In this document: positions 7,330 through 36,709 of the stretch, piece after piece
Position numbering within the stretch: position 1 is the stretch's first letter
How the letters are laid out: every line of letters begins with the position of its first letter
Translations under genes and position numbers: made by a program
The notes under the pieces: generated by a model
Seen by the model: the letters and a program-made list of their open reading frames with translations, nothing else
What the model was told of the DNA's origin: nothing
Database searches by the model: none
Assembly (NCBI GenBank): GCA_902773425.1
Contig: CACYEP010000007.1
Span: forward strand, 1-45,120
Direction: 5' to 3'
Origin: an uncultured Erysipelotrichaceae bacterium
Lineage (GTDB): Bacteria; Bacillota_I; Bacilli_A; Erysipelotrichales; Erysipelotrichaceae
DNA length: 45,120 bases

Positions 7330-8307
7330 TTATTCTCCGCTGCCCGACAAGCTTTCCAACGTTGTAAGGTTCTCATACATAATCGTCAGATAATCTTTGT
7401 TTTGGTTATATTCATTCTGCGTCAAAGAAGAAAGATTGGAAAGATTGACTTCGGTCAGTCCGCAATCGGCTTTGACACGTTCATATAACGCATTCATGGC
7501 TTCCGTCATATTGGATTCTTTCAAAATGTACTTGACGTCATCCGCGTTGATGCGGTTTTCAATGGCTTGGATCTGATCTTCGGTCGGAAGCGCACCGTAT
7601 CTCGACAAAATTAACGGATAAATGCCGATATTGTAGTCCTTCTGCCAATTGCCGAAACTCGGAGTTACCGTCACCAGTTTCAATCCCATCGAAGATAACA
7701 GGGAGTATTCCGAATCCAAGCGGACCAAATCTCCCTCCAGCGAACGGAAATTCGCATTATAAACCGCCGCATTGGTCGGATCTTTCGCGCTGAGCCATTC
7801 GAGTACGGTCCGCGCCATGGAAGTAAGCGCAATCGGGTCCATCCAGATTCCCATATCCTTGCCGTACGTATCGGTCATATTGAACAATCCGCCCTCATAC
7901 CAATCCGATTCCACAACGACCTTGCTGCCGGAAATCTCACCGGTTGTATAACGTTTAAAATCATAGATTGCTGCTAACGCGGATAAATCAATGATTTCCG
8001 CATTCGAACTCTTGATCTCGTCTTCATAAATCGTCCAATACGGTTCCAAATCGCCTACTTTTAAGATCAGATGTGCCTTATCCAGAGAGTCCTTGTAATC
8101 CGAAGCAATCTGGCTTACCTGAATCGGGCTGACGCCGTCGGAAAGGTTCTTGATATCAATATAATTACCCGCAATCCGTTTCAAAACATATTCCATCGGA
8201 TAAATCGTATATCCGACCGTAATTTTTTCGGCGGAACACCCGCTGAACATAACGATTTCGGCGCAGACAAGAAGCGCCGCAATAAATTTTTTCCATTTCT
8301 TCATCAT
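7330..8307 (-). CDS. ZnuA-like solute-binding lipoprotein lacking the metal-binding histidines
   Basis: The 325-residue protein has an N-terminal signal with a lipobox ending at Cys24 (FSGC), so it is probably a membrane-anchored lipoprotein. Its layout follows the metal-binding SBP_bac_9/ZnuA family: GVSPI at 58-62 aligns with the usual GVSPH, GIWMDP at 153-158 with PHxWLDP, and VTVTPSFGNW near 212-221 with VTSHxAFGY. In all three places the metal-ligating His is absent (Ile62, Gly153 and Thr215 by my alignment). No ABC permease or ATPase gene is nearby. It is the first gene of the polA operon, 2 bases before polA. Function is unknown; binding of Zn or Mn in the classical way is unlikely. 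Confidence 0.72.
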   Translation of the reverse strand: MMKKWKKFIAALLVCAEIVMFSGCSAEKITVGYTIYPMEYVLKRIAGNYIDIKNLSDGVSPIQVSQIASDYKDSLDKAHLILKVGDLEPYWTIYEDEIKSSNAEIIDLSALAAIYDFKRYTTGEISGSKVVVESDWYEGGLFNMTDTYGKDMGIWMDPIALTSMARTVLEWLSAKDPTNAAVYNANFRSLEGDLVRLDSEYSLLSSMGLKLVTVTPSFGNWQKDYNIGIYPLILSRYGALPTEDQIQAIENRINADDVKYILKESNMTEAMNALYERVKADCGLTEVNLSNLSSLTQNEYNQNKDYLTIMYENLTTLESLSGSGE

Positions 8308-29497: not shown

Positions 29498-32400
29498 TCA
29501 TCCGTTCATCTTGTTTAATCTGTATTTCCCAAGCAAAACCAACACAATCAGCACACTGACAGCCATGATGGAATACCAAAGAAACGGGTAGCGGATTGCG
29601 GAAGTAACCACCGGAATAAACGGATCGTTTTCTACCGTGATCCGGATCACACCTTTCTCTTCGGATTCATTTCCGCGCTTTACTTCAAAGATTTTATACG
29701 TCTTTCCGTAACCGATCGGAGCCCTTGTTTCACGCAGCTGATAACCGCCTTCCTTATCGTACAACTCGAATTCCAATATACCGTCATCCCCGGTAGTTCC
29801 TGCAGCAGGTTTTCCGTTAACATCATTCACGGTTTCTCCTGTTTTCGGATCAAACACCTCAAATCGGGCACCGGATAAATGGACGTTCCGGTCTTTCGAA
29901 TCAACTTTCTCAATCCGGACTTTTAACCTGATACGTTCATTTACGATTTCCAAAGTCTGCGGATTCTTGGTATCGCCGACAACGGTGAATGACTGATCTT
30001 CCGCTTTTTTATACCCGTAAGGAACATCTTTTTCCCGCAGAATATAACTGCCGTCTCCCTCAAGATACTCCGATACATCTATGCCTTCCGCACTCAAATC
30101 AGATTGAAATTCGTAAACGGTTTCTTCCTCTTTGTCACTATTAACCCGGAGGATCTGCAGCAGCGCACCGGAAACCGGATTTCCTTCGTCATCAACCTTT
30201 TTCACTTTTACCGATACAGACCTATCGATCACAGACACAATGACTTTCTCAAAGTTTTCCGGATGTTCCGGTACCGTAAACTCAACGCTTTCGGATTTGT
30301 AATACCCGGAAGGCGCTGTTATTTCGGTTATTCTGTACGAATGACCCGCAATCAGTTTTTTATCCAAAAGCACCGGTTCTTTCCCCGTCTTTTCAGGCAT
30401 CAGCTCCAGCAAAACCGCTTCCTCTCCCGTAATGTCATAAAGTTCCAAAACGGCACCTTCGACCGGATTTCCGTCTTCGTCCGTCTTTTCGATCTCATAC
30501 ACCACCGGCGCATCCTTCATCACTAGATCCGTTACTCCGGAATCTAGAGTAAACTTTATTTCCTCTGAAGAATAATATCCGTCCGGCGGTGCGGTTTCCT
30601 TCAAAATATAGGTTTGATGCATTTCAAGACCTTCCATGATATGCGGCACATCCGAACTGATCCATGAATCCAGCACTGTTCCGTTCTCATCTGTTAACTC
30701 CATAGCGGCGCCGGGTATTTCCTCCGTTCCGTTTAACGCGGTCTTCGTGATCCGCAGAACGGTCGGCGTATTGAGAGCCGTATAACGGCATTTCGAAGAT
30801 GATTCATTTGAAATTACTACCGGATGCTTCTCTTCATTTTCAACAAACCGCGCAGATTGAGACAATTCACGGACATAATAGTTCCCCGGATACAATCCTT
30901 CCGACAAAAGATATCCGTTCTGATCCGTAGATCCTTTTACGGCGCATTCATCCTTGAAATAAAGAATTTGACCGTTCGCCGGATTCACAATATCTTCTTG
31001 GGCGAACAGACCGAACTCAAACCCGGAACGGTCCGTGCGGTCAATAAAGGAAGTATCCGCGCCGGTATCCGGAAAATCCTTGAAGACCTCCAAGCTTCCC
31101 AATACCGGGTGATTTTGCACGACTATGGTATAAACATCATATCCGTCTTCCGAAGTAATCTCCGGATAATACACATCGCTTTCCGAACGTTTTAATTCGA
31201 TAAGATTTCCGATATACAGAGTTAACGGATCTCTTTGAACAAATCCCGACGGAGCTTTTATCTCCTCCAATGTATAGAAACCGTCCGGATATCTAAACGG
31301 AAATTCCGCGGTGCCTTTTTGATCCGTTTCCGAACAATACGCATCCGTCTGTTCTGGGGATTTATCGGAATTTGTCATATAGCTTGACCATGTGCTCTCT
31401 CCATTCTTCAAAACCGTTTCATTTCCATCAGCATCCGTAAGTTTAAATACCGCCGGGGATAATGTGATGATTTCGCCTGTTACCGCATCTTTTTTAACGA
31501 TGCGCAGTTTCTTTAACGGCCGGTCGCTTATGACAAATTCAAACGTCTTATCGTTTTCCTCAAATGTGTATTCCTCCCCCGGAATAATCTCATATCTCTC
31601 ATTTTCATGATCGTTTTGATATCCAGAAGCTGCGCGGGTTTCCATAAGGTAATATCCGCTTGAATCATAACGCAAAGTTCCTTGTGCCTTACCCTCTTCA
31701 TCCGTCATAAGACGCATAACTTCATTCCCGTCCGAAATGCGGTATACGGTAAATTCACACCCGGAAACCGGCAGCGCAGGATTCAGCGTATCTTTCTTGA
31801 TCACCGAAACATACACTTTTTCAGGTTCATCAACCATATTGATCACTCCGTTATTCTCTTCCGGCATAAACCGGATTTCCTGAGCTGTCTTATAACCGAA
31901 CGGAGTGTCTGTCTCTTTCAGGACATATACGGTTCCGTTTTGCAGTCCGGATATCCGGTGTTCCCCGGAACTGTCCGTGATCCATGAATCGATTTCCTGC
32001 CCGTTTAAGCCGTATACAGCGAGTTTTGCGCCGGATACAGGATTTCCTTCGTCATCTGTCTTTTTCACGGTTACAGGCATGTTTTTGGCCTTTACGGTCA
32101 GCCTTTCGGAAGACGCAGTAAACGTAATATCTTTCATTAATGCGTAGCCTTCCGGAGCAGCAACCTCATGAAGAATATAGGATTCTCCTTCCGTAAGGTT
32201 GTCCGGGATATGAGGTTTTTGATTTGAAATCCATTCGTCCAATACTTTTCCCTCTTTCAGGATCTGAAGTTTAGCGCCGGACACCGTGTTCCCTTTTTCA
32301 TCTTCCTTAACGATTTCCAAAACACCGTCCGTCATGGTTATTTCCGTAACCGATCCGTTTTTACCTGTTCGAAAGCTTACATCTTTCGCTTTAACGTATC

Positions 32401-33490
32401 CTTTCGGAGCGCTTACTTCCCTTAAAACATACATATGTTCGCATTGTAATTCGCCGATTTTCATCTTATTTCCGTCTGAGGTCCAGCGCTTAACCGGTGT
32501 GTTCATCTGATCCTTGTCATACAGTTCCAATACGGCTCCCGCAAGACCTTTTCCTTCCGGATCTTTTTTCATGACGGATATTTCCGCGTACGGGATCACG
32601 TTAACCTTGATGCTGTATTCAGTTTGATCCATGAGTTTAAAAGTCGCTTTATCCTGGCCGGTCTTATTCTCGTACACAATCACCGCGCCTTGATTCTTAT
32701 CATATTCCGAAGATGTTCTTTTAAAGGAAACTGTACCGGAAACACTGTTTTTATCCGCTGTAACCGTAACCTTATCGCCATTGATTTGCAAAACAGTTCC
32801 GGTGTTATTGACGGAAACGGAATACGTCGATATCACACCGTTCCGGTCGGTAATTACTGCCGATTCTCCGCTTTTCAGATGAATTTCCTTCTTATCAAAA
32901 TCCGGTGCGTTTTTCACATATTTCATGACGGATTTCTTATACGATTTATACGCCTCCGAATTGATTCCGAATTCTTTTCCTTCGACTTTCGCCTCAAAGG
33001 TGATCGATTCATAATGGGTATCCTCATTGAAATAATAGTCATGCGTAGAAAAATGGATTTCATTTCCGATCACATCCCAGATCAGAAGCTGGCACTTTAC
33101 GTAATCCGCCAGTGTTTTTTCCGAAATGTCGTACGCATAATAGACAATTTTCGACAGATAAAGTTTTTCATCTTCCGTCAGACGGTCCGGCTTTTCCGCG
33201 TAATATGCCTGCGGATCCCGGTAATTTTCCGGCTGAACGCAAAATGCATCCCGGATAATCCCGTCATCTCCCTTGATTCGGAAAAGATGGATTCCGTTGT
33301 AATAATCAAAACCCGCATTTGCGCCGTTTTGATAATATGCCCTCCCGTTCATATTCAATACCGATCCGGGAATATCGGTTGTAGTCGCATCTTGCGCAGC
33401 AAATACAGCCGCTAAAGGATCAAACAAACTTTCCATAATCAATAGCGTACATAACAACATCTTCCATAATCTTCTGACTGCGGTTTTCAT
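29498..33490 (-). CDS. Thioester-domain adhesin with ten SpaA/CnaB repeats
   Basis: This 1330-residue surface protein has a signal peptide (about 1-32) and a thioester (TQXA-type) domain with Cys84 in AFCVQPE and Gln134 in KCQLLIWD, the pair expected to form the internal Cys-Gln thioester used for covalent host attachment. A beta domain follows (about 200-300), then ten CnaB/SpaA prealbumin-like repeats. Each starts with a VxKxD-type strand holding the isopeptide Lys and most end with LxExxAPxGY holding the catalytic Glu. The C-terminus has a membrane segment (WYSIMAVSVLIVLVLLG) and KYRLNKMNG tail but no LPxTG; FIPVVTS stands where the sorting motif belongs. AAGGAGG precedes the ATG. It is monocistronic, with no sortase gene nearby. 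Confidence 0.9.
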   Translation of the reverse strand: MKTAVRRLWKMLLCTLLIMESLFDPLAAVFAAQDATTTDIPGSVLNMNGRAYYQNGANAGFDYYNGIHLFRIKGDDGIIRDAFCVQPENYRDPQAYYAEKPDRLTEDEKLYLSKIVYYAYDISEKTLADYVKCQLLIWDVIGNEIHFSTHDYYFNEDTHYESITFEAKVEGKEFGINSEAYKSYKKSVMKYVKNAPDFDKKEIHLKSGESAVITDRNGVISTYSVSVNNTGTVLQINGDKVTVTADKNSVSGTVSFKRTSSEYDKNQGAVIVYENKTGQDKATFKLMDQTEYSIKVNVIPYAEISVMKKDPEGKGLAGAVLELYDKDQMNTPVKRWTSDGNKMKIGELQCEHMYVLREVSAPKGYVKAKDVSFRTGKNGSVTEITMTDGVLEIVKEDEKGNTVSGAKLQILKEGKVLDEWISNQKPHIPDNLTEGESYILHEVAAPEGYALMKDITFTASSERLTVKAKNMPVTVKKTDDEGNPVSGAKLAVYGLNGQEIDSWITDSSGEHRISGLQNGTVYVLKETDTPFGYKTAQEIRFMPEENNGVINMVDEPEKVYVSVIKKDTLNPALPVSGCEFTVYRISDGNEVMRLMTDEEGKAQGTLRYDSSGYYLMETRAASGYQNDHENERYEIIPGEEYTFEENDKTFEFVISDRPLKKLRIVKKDAVTGEIITLSPAVFKLTDADGNETVLKNGESTWSSYMTNSDKSPEQTDAYCSETDQKGTAEFPFRYPDGFYTLEEIKAPSGFVQRDPLTLYIGNLIELKRSESDVYYPEITSEDGYDVYTIVVQNHPVLGSLEVFKDFPDTGADTSFIDRTDRSGFEFGLFAQEDIVNPANGQILYFKDECAVKGSTDQNGYLLSEGLYPGNYYVRELSQSARFVENEEKHPVVISNESSSKCRYTALNTPTVLRITKTALNGTEEIPGAAMELTDENGTVLDSWISSDVPHIMEGLEMHQTYILKETAPPDGYYSSEEIKFTLDSGVTDLVMKDAPVVYEIEKTDEDGNPVEGAVLELYDITGEEAVLLELMPEKTGKEPVLLDKKLIAGHSYRITEITAPSGYYKSESVEFTVPEHPENFEKVIVSVIDRSVSVKVKKVDDEGNPVSGALLQILRVNSDKEEETVYEFQSDLSAEGIDVSEYLEGDGSYILREKDVPYGYKKAEDQSFTVVGDTKNPQTLEIVNERIRLKVRIEKVDSKDRNVHLSGARFEVFDPKTGETVNDVNGKPAAGTTGDDGILEFELYDKEGGYQLRETRAPIGYGKTYKIFEVKRGNESEEKGVIRITVENDPFIPVVTSAIRYPFLWYSIMAVSVLIVLVLLGKYRLNKMNG

Positions 33491-33556: not shown

Positions 33557-33586
33557 CAAAAAAACTTCCCGGAAAAATCCGGGAAG
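33557..33586 (-). terminator. Terminator of the hydrolase-G3E GTPase operon
   Basis: On the minus strand CTTCCCGGA/TCCGGGAAG with loop TTTT is followed by seven T, 14 bases after the stop. Confidence 0.93.
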
Positions 33587-33599
33587 CATCGGAATGATT

Positions 33600-34541
33600 C
33601 TAGAATGTTACATCCTGATTCTCAATCGGACGGCACGGCGTGAGTTTTGACTGATAAATCGACAGATATTCGGAATTGCTTTCAGGATCAAAATCCACTC
33701 TGGCTTTTCCGGTAACCTCGACCCAGGTCCCCGGATTCAATCCTTTTCCTGTTTGATCTACAACGCCTACTCCCATAAACTGACGGTCCTGCGCGCAGCA
33801 AACCATCGCGAACCTGCCTACCGCAACAATCGGTTTATCAAATTGAGTCGTCGGATAGGCAATCCCCTTAAAGGACAATGTTTTTCCTTTGTATTTGCGC
33901 GGATGATCCAGCGCATCCATATACCAAATTCCGTAATCGTCCGGTTCAATATTGATGCGGTCTTTGGAAAAATCAAACGGCAGTTCATCCTCACCGAGTT
34001 CTTCAATTTCGCCGCTGACGTTTTCATAGATCAGCTGTGCCATACGGTTATACGCACGCACATTGGAACGTAAGAAACTCTTCTTGACGCTCTTATCGCA
34101 GCGGTTGAAGATAATTAAATCCGCAAATCGGAGCTGTTCATACATGAATGACTTCATGTTGGCAAAATAATTCGCCGCCGTTGAAGCATCTACAGTTGCG
34201 ACAATCTGGGCAATTTCCCATCCTGCAGGCACCTTAAGTTTCAGGAAATCTTCCACTTTCCATGTGCCGTTATACTCGATCATAACTCTTTCCGGCGTAT
34301 AGAAGTCATTCAGTTCCTTCAGATGCTCAAAACTCATACCTTTCTCAAAATCATCAATGACTTCAATATGCGTATTCAGTTCTTTCGCCTTCTTTGGATC
34401 AAACTCTTCGATTCCTTCTTCCAGTACCAGAAGCAATGTCTTTTCTCCCGTGTTAAAAGCCTCATCGTGAAGAGTTTCATCGATTAAAGTTGTTTTGCCG
34501 GATTCAATGAACCCTGTGAACAGATAAACAGGTACATTCAT
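33600..34541 (-). CDS. G3E/COG0523-type GTPase fused to a DUF1980 (YcgQ C-terminal)-like domain
   Basis: Residues 1-190 form a CobW/G3E GTPase with Walker A GFIESGKTTL and an NRCD guanine motif (146-149). The family's metal-binding GCxCC motif is absent: the equivalent region reads RVMIEYNGTWKVE. Residues about 215-306 resemble the C-terminal domain of the TIGR03943/YcgQ partner of DUF318 permeases: GKTLSFKGIAYP, GRFAMVCCAQDRQFMGVGV with the hallmark Cys-Cys pair (248-249), and TWVEVTGKARV. No permease gene is present. It starts 2 bases after the His-rich GTPase gene, so the two products are probably made together. Confidence 0.8.
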   Translation of the reverse strand: MNVPVYLFTGFIESGKTTLIDETLHDEAFNTGEKTLLLVLEEGIEEFDPKKAKELNTHIEVIDDFEKGMSFEHLKELNDFYTPERVMIEYNGTWKVEDFLKLKVPAGWEIAQIVATVDASTAANYFANMKSFMYEQLRFADLIIFNRCDKSVKKSFLRSNVRAYNRMAQLIYENVSGEIEELGEDELPFDFSKDRINIEPDDYGIWYMDALDHPRKYKGKTLSFKGIAYPTTQFDKPIVAVGRFAMVCCAQDRQFMGVGVVDQTGKGLNPGTWVEVTGKARVDFDPESNSEYLSIYQSKLTPCRPIENQDVTF

Positions 34542-34543
34542 GA

Positions 34544-35707
34544 TTAATCCTCAAATAGTTTGCGAAGTTTCTTGACATCCAATTCCGTACCGATGATGCA
34601 GACTTTACCGGTATATGTCGCCGGTCCGGTATGTACATCCGGTTCGCCCGGGACATAATCGAAGTGCAGCCATTCGCCGGTTTCGGACGGAACAATACCC
34701 TTTACGCGCAAAACATGTTCGAACAGTTCCTCATCGGAAGAAACGGCTTCAAGAATGCTTGAAAGCTTTTCAACTGTATACTGTTTCGCAGTTTCGAATC
34801 CGTAGGTATCAAAAACATCGTCCGCATCATGTTCATCATGGTCATGATGATGTTCATGGTCATGGTGATGGTGATGATGTCCGCATCCGCATTCTTCGTC
34901 ATCCTCTTCGCATTCGCATTCATCATCCCCGCCGCAGCAGCATTCATGATGGTGATGATGGTGTTCATGTTCTTCTTCATCATCCTCATCGTGATCATGG
35001 TGATGATGTTCATGCTCTTCTTCATCTTCTTCATGATGACGGTGATGGTGGTGGTGGTGATGCTCATGAACCGGACGCTTACGGATTTCTTCCAGCATCT
35101 CTTCCATCATTTCATCCTTGTCTTCCAAAAGCTTTTCAACATCTTCCGCATTGAATTCTTCCCAGTCGGTTGTAACAATCTTCGCCTCCGGATTTACTTC
35201 CGCAACCATTGCGCGGACCTCTTCCAGTTTCTCCGCGGATAATCCCTTGGTATGCGATAATACAACTACATTCGCGTAACGGATCTGGTCCGTGAAGAAT
35301 TCGCGGAAGTTCTTCATATACATCTTTGCCTTCTTCGCGTCAACAATCGTTAAGGAACCTTTCACGGTCAATCCGGCATGTTCCGCTTCGGTAATTGCTT
35401 TTAAAATGTCCGAAAGCTTGCCGACTCCGCTTGGTTCAATGATAATCAGATCCGGATGATACTGCTCCACCGCCGAAGCAAGCGCAGTAACAAAATCACC
35501 GACCAGCGTGCAGCAGATGCAGCCCGAATTTAATTCCGTGATCTGCACTCCCGCATCCTGCAGGAATCCCGCATCCACGCCGATGTCGCCGAATTCATTT
35601 TCAATCAGCATGCATTTTTCATCTTTATGTGCTTCTTTTAACGCTTTCTTGATCCAGGTTGTTTTACCCGCACCGAGAAAGCCCGAAATAATTTCTACTT
35701 TTGCCAT
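34544..35707 (-). CDS. G3E/COG0523 metallochaperone GTPase with His/Cys/acid-rich insert
   Basis: The 387-residue protein has Walker A GFLGAGKTTW (9-18), the switch segment ENEFGDIGVD, the metal motif GCICC (62-66), and EPSGVGKL. An extreme low-complexity insert (about 214-297) holds dozens of His plus CCCGG and ECGCG cysteine clusters and acidic runs. A CobW C-terminal domain follows (YTVEKLSSILE to GTELDVKKLRKLFED). The guanine motif is SHTKG rather than NKxD. The family inserts or delivers Zn, Ni or Co; the insert should buffer several ions. It is middle gene of the hydrolase-GTPase-GTPase operon, 12 bases after the hydrolase. Confidence 0.9.
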   Translation of the reverse strand: MAKVEIISGFLGAGKTTWIKKALKEAHKDEKCMLIENEFGDIGVDAGFLQDAGVQITELNSGCICCTLVGDFVTALASAVEQYHPDLIIIEPSGVGKLSDILKAITEAEHAGLTVKGSLTIVDAKKAKMYMKNFREFFTDQIRYANVVVLSHTKGLSAEKLEEVRAMVAEVNPEAKIVTTDWEEFNAEDVEKLLEDKDEMMEEMLEEIRKRPVHEHHHHHHHRHHEEDEEEHEHHHHDHDEDDEEEHEHHHHHHECCCGGDDECECEEDDEECGCGHHHHHHDHEHHHDHDEHDADDVFDTYGFETAKQYTVEKLSSILEAVSSDEELFEHVLRVKGIVPSETGEWLHFDYVPGEPDVHTGPATYTGKVCIIGTELDVKKLRKLFED

Positions 35708-35719
35708 AGTAATCCTCTC

Positions 35720-36709
35720 CTATTCACCCGGTATTATAGCACTCCTCGTTTTATCAGGGTCGTTTTTGCCCGCCGTTTCGAGACACTTTTTCACAAAACC
35801 CGTAAAAACAGTCCGGTATCCTTCAGGGTCTTCATTGCGGCATCTGGCATGTCCTGCGCCTTTCACGGTAAAGAATTCTTTGGGTCCGTTATAGGCTTGA
35901 TATAGATTCTGTCCCATCTCATAAGGAACCATTTTATCTTCTGTTCCGTGAATAAACAGTCCCGGGATCACGGATTTTGTGATTGTCTTGACCGGTGAAG
36001 CATCATATAAAGAACACCCCGTAAAGATCAATCCCGAAAGATTCATCATCACAAATCCGAACTCACGCAGGATTTTGGGATACTTACGCATCAAATACCG
36101 GTATTCGTCTCCCATGTCATCGTATCCGCAGTCCTCCGCAAACCCGATCACATTCATAGGAAGCCTGCGGTCCGAGGCCATCATCATGATTGTCGCCGCC
36201 CCCATGGAAACCCCATGCAGGAAGATCTTCACTCCGGTTCCGTAACGCAATATGATTTCACGCACCCAACGGATTCCGTCATTCTTTTCTTTGACACCGA
36301 ACGTAATCAGATTCCCTTTCGAGTCTTCATGCGCCCTTTCATTCACAATCAGATAATCCGCACCGCACTCCCCGTAGACCGGCGCAAACCACCCCATGCC
36401 GGCAAGTCCCGATGAATGATAGCCGTGAAACGAAATAATTACCAGATCATTCTGCGGTTTCGTGCGGAAAAGATATCCGGTCAGCTTCAGCCCGTCCTCC
36501 GAGGTAACCGTTATTTTTTCCGGATTCTTTGATGCCAGTTCTTCCAGCATTTTATCGCGGTCTGTCTTGGAGGAAGGAATTCCTTTGGGTAATAGCGGAT
36601 TTACATATTTTCCGCGTTTACGAAGAGAAAACGAGCCGTATTGATACACCGATATGCCGGCGATTCCGGCTGCCAAGATCCCTGCGCCGATTCCGATTGC
36701 CTTTTTCAT
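35720..36709 (-). CDS. Membrane-anchored alpha/beta hydrolase
   Basis: The protein is 329 residues from ATG 36707-36709 (AGGAGG site); the upstream ATG at 36742 falls over the promoter and is rejected. An N-terminal anchor (AIGIGAGILAAGIAGISVY) precedes a serine hydrolase with SFHGYHSSG near the oxyanion hole, nucleophile elbow GVSMGA, acidic residue in GTEDKMVP and His in KGAGHARC. It resembles the YqkD/BEM46-like extracytoplasmic hydrolases of Bacillota; the substrate is unknown. It leads the operon with the two G3E GTPases. Whether that link is functional is not evident. Confidence 0.8.
   Translation of the reverse strand: MKKAIGIGAGILAAGIAGISVYQYGSFSLRKRGKYVNPLLPKGIPSSKTDRDKMLEELASKNPEKITVTSEDGLKLTGYLFRTKPQNDLVIISFHGYHSSGLAGMGWFAPVYGECGADYLIVNERAHEDSKGNLITFGVKEKNDGIRWVREIILRYGTGVKIFLHGVSMGAATIMMMASDRRLPMNVIGFAEDCGYDDMGDEYRYLMRKYPKILREFGFVMMNLSGLIFTGCSLYDASPVKTITKSVIPGLFIHGTEDKMVPYEMGQNLYQAYNGPKEFFTVKGAGHARCRNEDPEGYRTVFTGFVKKCLETAGKNDPDKTRSAIIPGE

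Follow-up and report, generated by a model that had tools for sequence, protein, structure and literature searches.

DUF1980 proteins are widespread in Gram-positive bacteria. We found no function for DUF1980, TIGR03943 or YcgQ in the literature, and no link between DUF1980 and zinc, with subscription papers and regulon databases lying outside the search, so that an earlier mention is possible. ScfAB, made up of a TIGR03943 protein and a DUF318 permease, is needed for the fitness of group A streptococcus in mice, and had no molecular function at its description (PMC5584981). COG0523 proteins, such as YciC and ZigA, with E. coli YjiA as a solved relative, are zinc metallochaperones (PMC6103462, PMC5007448).

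Here we examined a 45,120-nucleotide stretch of DNA (the window) from an uncultured Erysipelotrichaceae bacterium whose genome is 88% complete. An earlier note on this DNA had described two neighbouring G3E GTPases, one of them fused to a C-terminal DUF1980 domain. Both open reading frames were confirmed, on the minus strand and 2 nt apart (Table 1), as was the fusion: all four Pfam matches (cobW and CobW_C in gene A, cobW and DUF1980_C in gene B) exceed the Pfam cut-offs, and the DUF1980_C match in B is the sole one in this genome. At present, both proteins go by the name 'GTP-binding protein' only in gut Bacillota annotations.

Table 1. Features of the A-B pair, with positions in the window, and small membrane protein genes at other loci
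Feature	Position	Strand	Observation
Gene A, COG0523-type G3E GTPase, 387 aa	34544..35707	-	cobW 1.4e-40, CobW_C 4.1e-6 (Pfam)
Gene B, G3E NTPase domain + DUF1980_C fusion, 313 aa	33600..34541	-	cobW 1.8e-9, DUF1980_C 4.4e-16 (Pfam)
GCICC (CxCC) metal motif, A residues 62-66	35510..35524	-	G-C-I-C-C in 100/100 A sequences
His/Cys-rich insert of A, approximate limits	34817..35073	-	35 His + 7 Cys
CobW_C domain, A residues 302-386	34550..34804	-	Pfam, 27 bits vs cut-off 22
P-loop of B, GFIESGKT	34491..34514	-	G, S, G, K invariant, 81 B sequences
DUF1980_C domain of B, PF21537	33690..33971	-	about 59.3-60.9 bits vs gathering cut-off 25.9
Cys pair of B, C248-C249	33795..33800	-	invariant in 81/81 B sequences
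Intrinsic terminator-like hairpin 3' of B	33564..33587	-	10 pairs, 6 G-C, then T run; consensus match only
Promoter-like extended -10 TGCTATAAT upstream of A	35733..35741	-	by eye
Small Cys/His membrane protein genes	L151:5632-5973, L172:7142-7441, L174:7172-7498, L180:1834-2139		CP[IV]C-type motif in three

Two unequal G3E proteins

Gene A is like YciC and ZigA in its G domain, CxCC, His-rich stretch and CobW_C, but differs from them in occurring in a pair with B, in having S-R-T-Q in place of NKxD, and in lacking a Zur box in front. Across 100 A sequences, SGFLGAGKTT, GCICC and IEPSG are near-invariant, the first two (100/100) being the G-domain and CxCC marks of COG0523 proteins. The guanine-specificity motif NKxD is replaced by S-[RH]-T-Q in the same sequences (Ser 100%, Gln 82%, Asp 10%), a departure that does not exclude A from COG0523, since other COG0523 paralogs in the same genomes also depart. 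The huge His insert that the earlier note had seen beside GCICC is about 112 aa long, and A-type inserts have a median of 35 His in the 58 relatives measured. COG0523 paralogs other than A, of about 310 aa (L154-L157), lack CxCC and also have an altered NKxD.

In all 81 B sequences the P-loop (G, S, G, K), ExN and N-R are kept, with no conserved Asp after N-R-x. As the earlier note had said of the second GTPase, CxCC is missing from all 81; the only conserved Cys of the G domain is C148, in an N-R-C motif, none of the sequences has a His-rich stretch, and among the Cys residues 248 and 249 alone are invariant, as is D252. Set against YciC and ZigA, B has neither CxCC nor CobW_C, and DUF1980_C stands in place of the latter. 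With the guanine-specificity motif degenerate in both, even GTP would be only a putative substrate of A and B.

B shares DUF1980_C, with its CC..D motif, with TIGR03943/YcgQ/ScfB (hhalign 97% to a TIGR03943 protein), but unlike them is cytosolic, has no membrane part and no partner of the DUF318 permease type (YcgR/ScfA), and is fused to a G3E NTPase. A C-terminal CCAxD typical of TIGR03943/YcgQ had been claimed for it. The motif itself (CCAQD in the window, [VT]CC..D in the family) and the above-cut-off DUF1980_C bear this out, whereas the TIGR03943 match lies below its curated cut-off (67.4 vs 88.8 bits) and covers the C-terminal half only, which indicates that B carries DUF1980_C without the membrane-anchored N-terminal part. 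We found no hydrophobic or membrane segment in B.

A single-chain structure model of B (pLDDT 88.9) has a G domain predicted to be nearest in fold to YjiA, HypB and UreG. Its C-terminal domain is modelled as an OB-like barrel (pLDDT 87.9), for which matches among solved structures were weak and closest to OB folds such as SSB; a sequence search returned no solved relatives of B. With UreG, HypB and other G3E metal GTPases, the pair has the superfamily and the G-domain fold in common, but the extra domains differ and the pair is not linked to any urease or hydrogenase genes.

An obligate pair across gut Bacillota

A scan of named genomes returned at least 554 loci encoding B relatives, which rules out a single odd fusion or an artefact; the best 80 of these lie in Erysipelotrichaceae, Lachnospiraceae (including Blautia) and a few further families. 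The fusion-bearing pair is thus a conserved family of hundreds of species of gut bacteria, not a one-off. Among 60 relatives, 37 hold both A and B and none holds only one in full, a C-terminal fragment of B in one (G015) lying at a contig end. In a sample of 392 genomes, B occurs in 57, all of which have A, and A alone occurs in none. In 56 of the 57, A scores at least 169 bits, with the next COG0523 protein at 142 bits, the threshold having been chosen after this gap was observed; the remaining genome (G384) has the C-terminal part of A, running off its contig. The earlier note had made its reading depend on a profile match to DUF1980 and on co-occurrence of the two genes in relatives, and both were found, the second in 37/37 relatives and 57/57 sampled genomes.

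Adjacency is support separate from these counts. Among the best 80 of the at least 554 loci, A or its end lies directly upstream of B in 74 of 76 informative cases, the contig beginning too near B in the other four; in one exception A is 4.6 kb from B with other genes between (L050), and in the second (L094) B stands without a neighbouring A. When flanking genes were clustered, A and B alone proved to be widely shared, with no third conserved gene near the pair, and so a larger operon is ruled out. A divergent MarR-type regulator adjoins the pair in six loci only, no zinc gene lies beside the pair in the window, and the pair gave no Rfam match to a riboswitch. Judging from the sequence around it, this compact two-gene unit possibly has a promoter to itself, situated within the 3' end of the upstream hydrolase gene. 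The extended -10 that we propose was not listed by the scan that gave the hairpin after B; TG-N-TATAAT similar to it occurs in several relatives. The hairpin after B starts 12 nt downstream of the gene.

As the earlier note had it, no permease is encoded: we found no DUF318/ArsP_1 permease in the 88%-complete genome. Among the 60 relatives, the permease is present in 13 of 37 with B and in 8 of 23 without it (Fisher p=1, a descriptive value only, since genome counts share ancestry). The failure to find one in the pair's own genome and this lack of association rule out dependence of the pair on a DUF318 permease. The suggested coupling to a membrane step is likewise not supported, given that B lacks a membrane part and that the pair is a two-gene unit.

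DUF1980_C in zinc operons and beside permeases

In the 392-genome sample, DUF1980_C above its cut-off occurs almost only as B, the exceptions being one permease+TIGR03943 pair (G402) and five short lipoproteins. Each of these five stand-alone lipoproteins (G005, G017, G151, G220, G290) is the final gene of a znuA-znuC-znuB operon, and a Fur-family regulator gene heads four of the five operons. After this pattern had been noticed, we ran a follow-up in another group, comprising 38 additional genomes, most of them from Lachnospiraceae, which gave three above-cut-off stand-alone DUF1980_C proteins; all three are again lipoproteins closing znu operons, one of them behind an inserted transposase gene. 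In unbiased family searches, then, 8/8 such proteins are lipoproteins ending znuACB operons. A ninth, from Subdoligranulum, was located via its similarity to the first eight and is likewise an above-cut-off lipoprotein at the end of such an operon. Sub-threshold DUF1980_C matches in four genomes (G054, G121, G430, G436; G104 and G329 left out) lie outside znu operons. The lipoproteins are like B in the domain and its Cys pair (hhalign 95%), but are stand-alone and extracytoplasmic, and belong to a zinc importer operon; they are described here, and we found no name for them. Tracing the domain to zinc operons bears out the earlier note's expectation that the fusion would speak to the role of DUF1980.

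In four znu operons with a terminal DUF1980_C lipoprotein, a small Cys/His membrane protein of 99-113 aa is encoded just before znuA (Table 1); the one tested had no Pfam match. In three genomes, the Fur-family regulator gene at the head of the znu operon is preceded by a perfect palindrome, TGAAAATGATTTTCA (L161:472-486, with L162 and L183 matching in position), a candidate Zur operator of this group. Three relatives have a Fur-type palindrome in front of zur-znu; A lacks it in G017, G151 and G220, and no B. subtilis-type Zur box precedes A-B in the window, where the host's own Zur operator may differ from that consensus. We therefore dropped Zur control of the pair; with no recognisable Zur boxes, its expression would be constitutive, not a response to starvation.

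On five Bacillaceae plasmids (one from Pseudalkalibacillus, four from Priestia), the permease gene of permease+TIGR03943 pairs has Zur-box-like palindromes upstream, where about 0 would be expected. The Pseudalkalibacillus locus holds four such sites and a COG0523 gene, and a zinc island on Priestia aryabhattai plasmid p-LAD2 (L190) combines three sites with a COG0523 gene, znuABC, two permease+TIGR03943 pairs and ZinT. No such site was found at Pontibacillus, Niallia and Enterococcus permease+TIGR03943 loci. The B. subtilis row of a published Zur regulon table contains znuABC, ZinT, yciC and ribosomal paralogs, and no permease+TIGR03943 pair (PMC6103462). In the plasmid-borne TIGR03943 proteins (L189-L195, L188), the loop joining hydrophobic segments 2 and 3 is rich in His/Cys, and with three such segments their DUF1980_C would face the outside of the cell.

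The Cys pair stands out in an alignment of B, the lipoproteins and one TIGR03943 protein, as CC in most, CPYC (CxxC) in two lipoproteins and HC in a TIGR03943 subgroup. Metal ligands typically show such swaps between Cys and His at a single position, and with CC, HC and CxxC exchanging here the pair would be expected to bind metal. Since the domain lies outside the cell in the lipoproteins (and, by predicted topology, in the plasmid-borne TIGR03943 proteins) and inside it in B, DUF1980_C is likely an autonomous metal-binding module.

A proposed cytosolic metal-handling unit and its alternatives

The explanation that we favour, at about an even chance, is that A and B form a two-gene cytosolic G3E metal-handling unit, most likely for zinc, with nucleotide-dependent transfer between the two proteins and no permease. 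A would bind metal via CxCC and buffer it on its His/Cys-rich insert, while B would be its diverged G3E partner, having lost CxCC and gained DUF1980_C instead, in whose OB-like fold the Cys pair would form the metal site. By analogy with other dimeric G3E/SIMIBI-class proteins, an A:B complex would depend on nucleotide, and metal would pass between A's site and the Cys pair of B, to or from a cytosolic client. The relay of two GTPases imagined in the earlier note would take this form; of that reading, the observation, the fusion, the co-occurrence and the lack of a permease have stood, and the membrane coupling alone lacks support. Zinc is assigned to the pair from the other contexts of DUF1980_C, not from the pair's own neighbourhood. 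Complementary motif loss, with A keeping CxCC and B keeping NKxD, was weakened as an argument, since all that B retains is N-R, with no conserved Asp to follow, and since NKxD is altered in other COG0523 paralogs too. A further-reaching version, tentative and on balance doubtful, would make DUF1980_C an OB module that binds zinc and serves on either side of the membrane (in ZnuACB lipoproteins, in ScfB/YcgQ with the permease, and in cytosolic B) and the pair an obligate heterodimeric zinc metallochaperone in which the module has replaced the metal site of one G3E subunit. If this metallochaperone system of two unequal G3E subunits were real, it would be carried by a large proportion of gut Bacillota. 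Taken together, these contexts point DUF1980 to zinc and name testable residues, and the pair is of value mainly in that the function of DUF1980 becomes testable.

It seems unlikely that A is mainly a zinc (metal) store, with B as a regulatory subunit that loads and unloads it through nucleotide hydrolysis and with no dedicated client enzyme. The very long insert of A would suit such a store, as would a B devoid of CxCC and of His-rich stretches, the lack of a conserved client gene on flanking-gene clustering, and promoters without zinc-starvation control, which fit a housekeeping buffer; yet A, like COG0523 delivery proteins, keeps CxCC and the P-loop in full, and the clients of COG0523 proteins are usually encoded elsewhere. 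That the pair handles nickel, cobalt, iron or copper, with DUF1980_C as a general soft-metal module, strikes us as quite improbable. G3E proteins do serve Ni, Co, Fe and Zn (PMC9164220), and the A-B pair has no Zur boxes. One Priestia permease+TIGR03943 pair has nickel transport genes nearby and two have P-type ATPase/HMA or copper genes, but at these loci Zur-box-like sites immediately precede the permease gene. Moreover, ZnuACB-type operons house all nine stand-alone DUF1980_C lipoproteins, an argument that is not absolute, as the ABC-3/ZnuA families include some Mn importers.

Very improbable, in our estimation, is a regulatory or stress module without metal transfer, in which DUF1980_C is an OB-fold binder of nucleic acid or protein, or a vicinal-Cys redox switch. 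The weak resemblance to OB folds such as SSB would agree with it, vicinal Cys can act as redox switches, and ycgRQ of B. subtilis is reported to be under ECF sigma control, as cited in a passage of PMC5584981. However, exchange of the Cys pair for HC and CxxC is typical of metal ligands rather than of a disulfide, and nucleic-acid binding is unlikely for stand-alone versions that are secreted lipoproteins of zinc importers.

Two other genes of the window may be recorded. Next to the pair (29498-33490, minus strand) lies the gene of a 1330-aa surface protein containing ten SpaA (prealbumin-like) domains, which adjoins the pair in a sister genome (L003) too. At 7330-8307, on the minus strand, lies a lone ZnuA-family substrate-binding lipoprotein gene (Pfam 1.2e-30), with no znuB or znuC adjoining.
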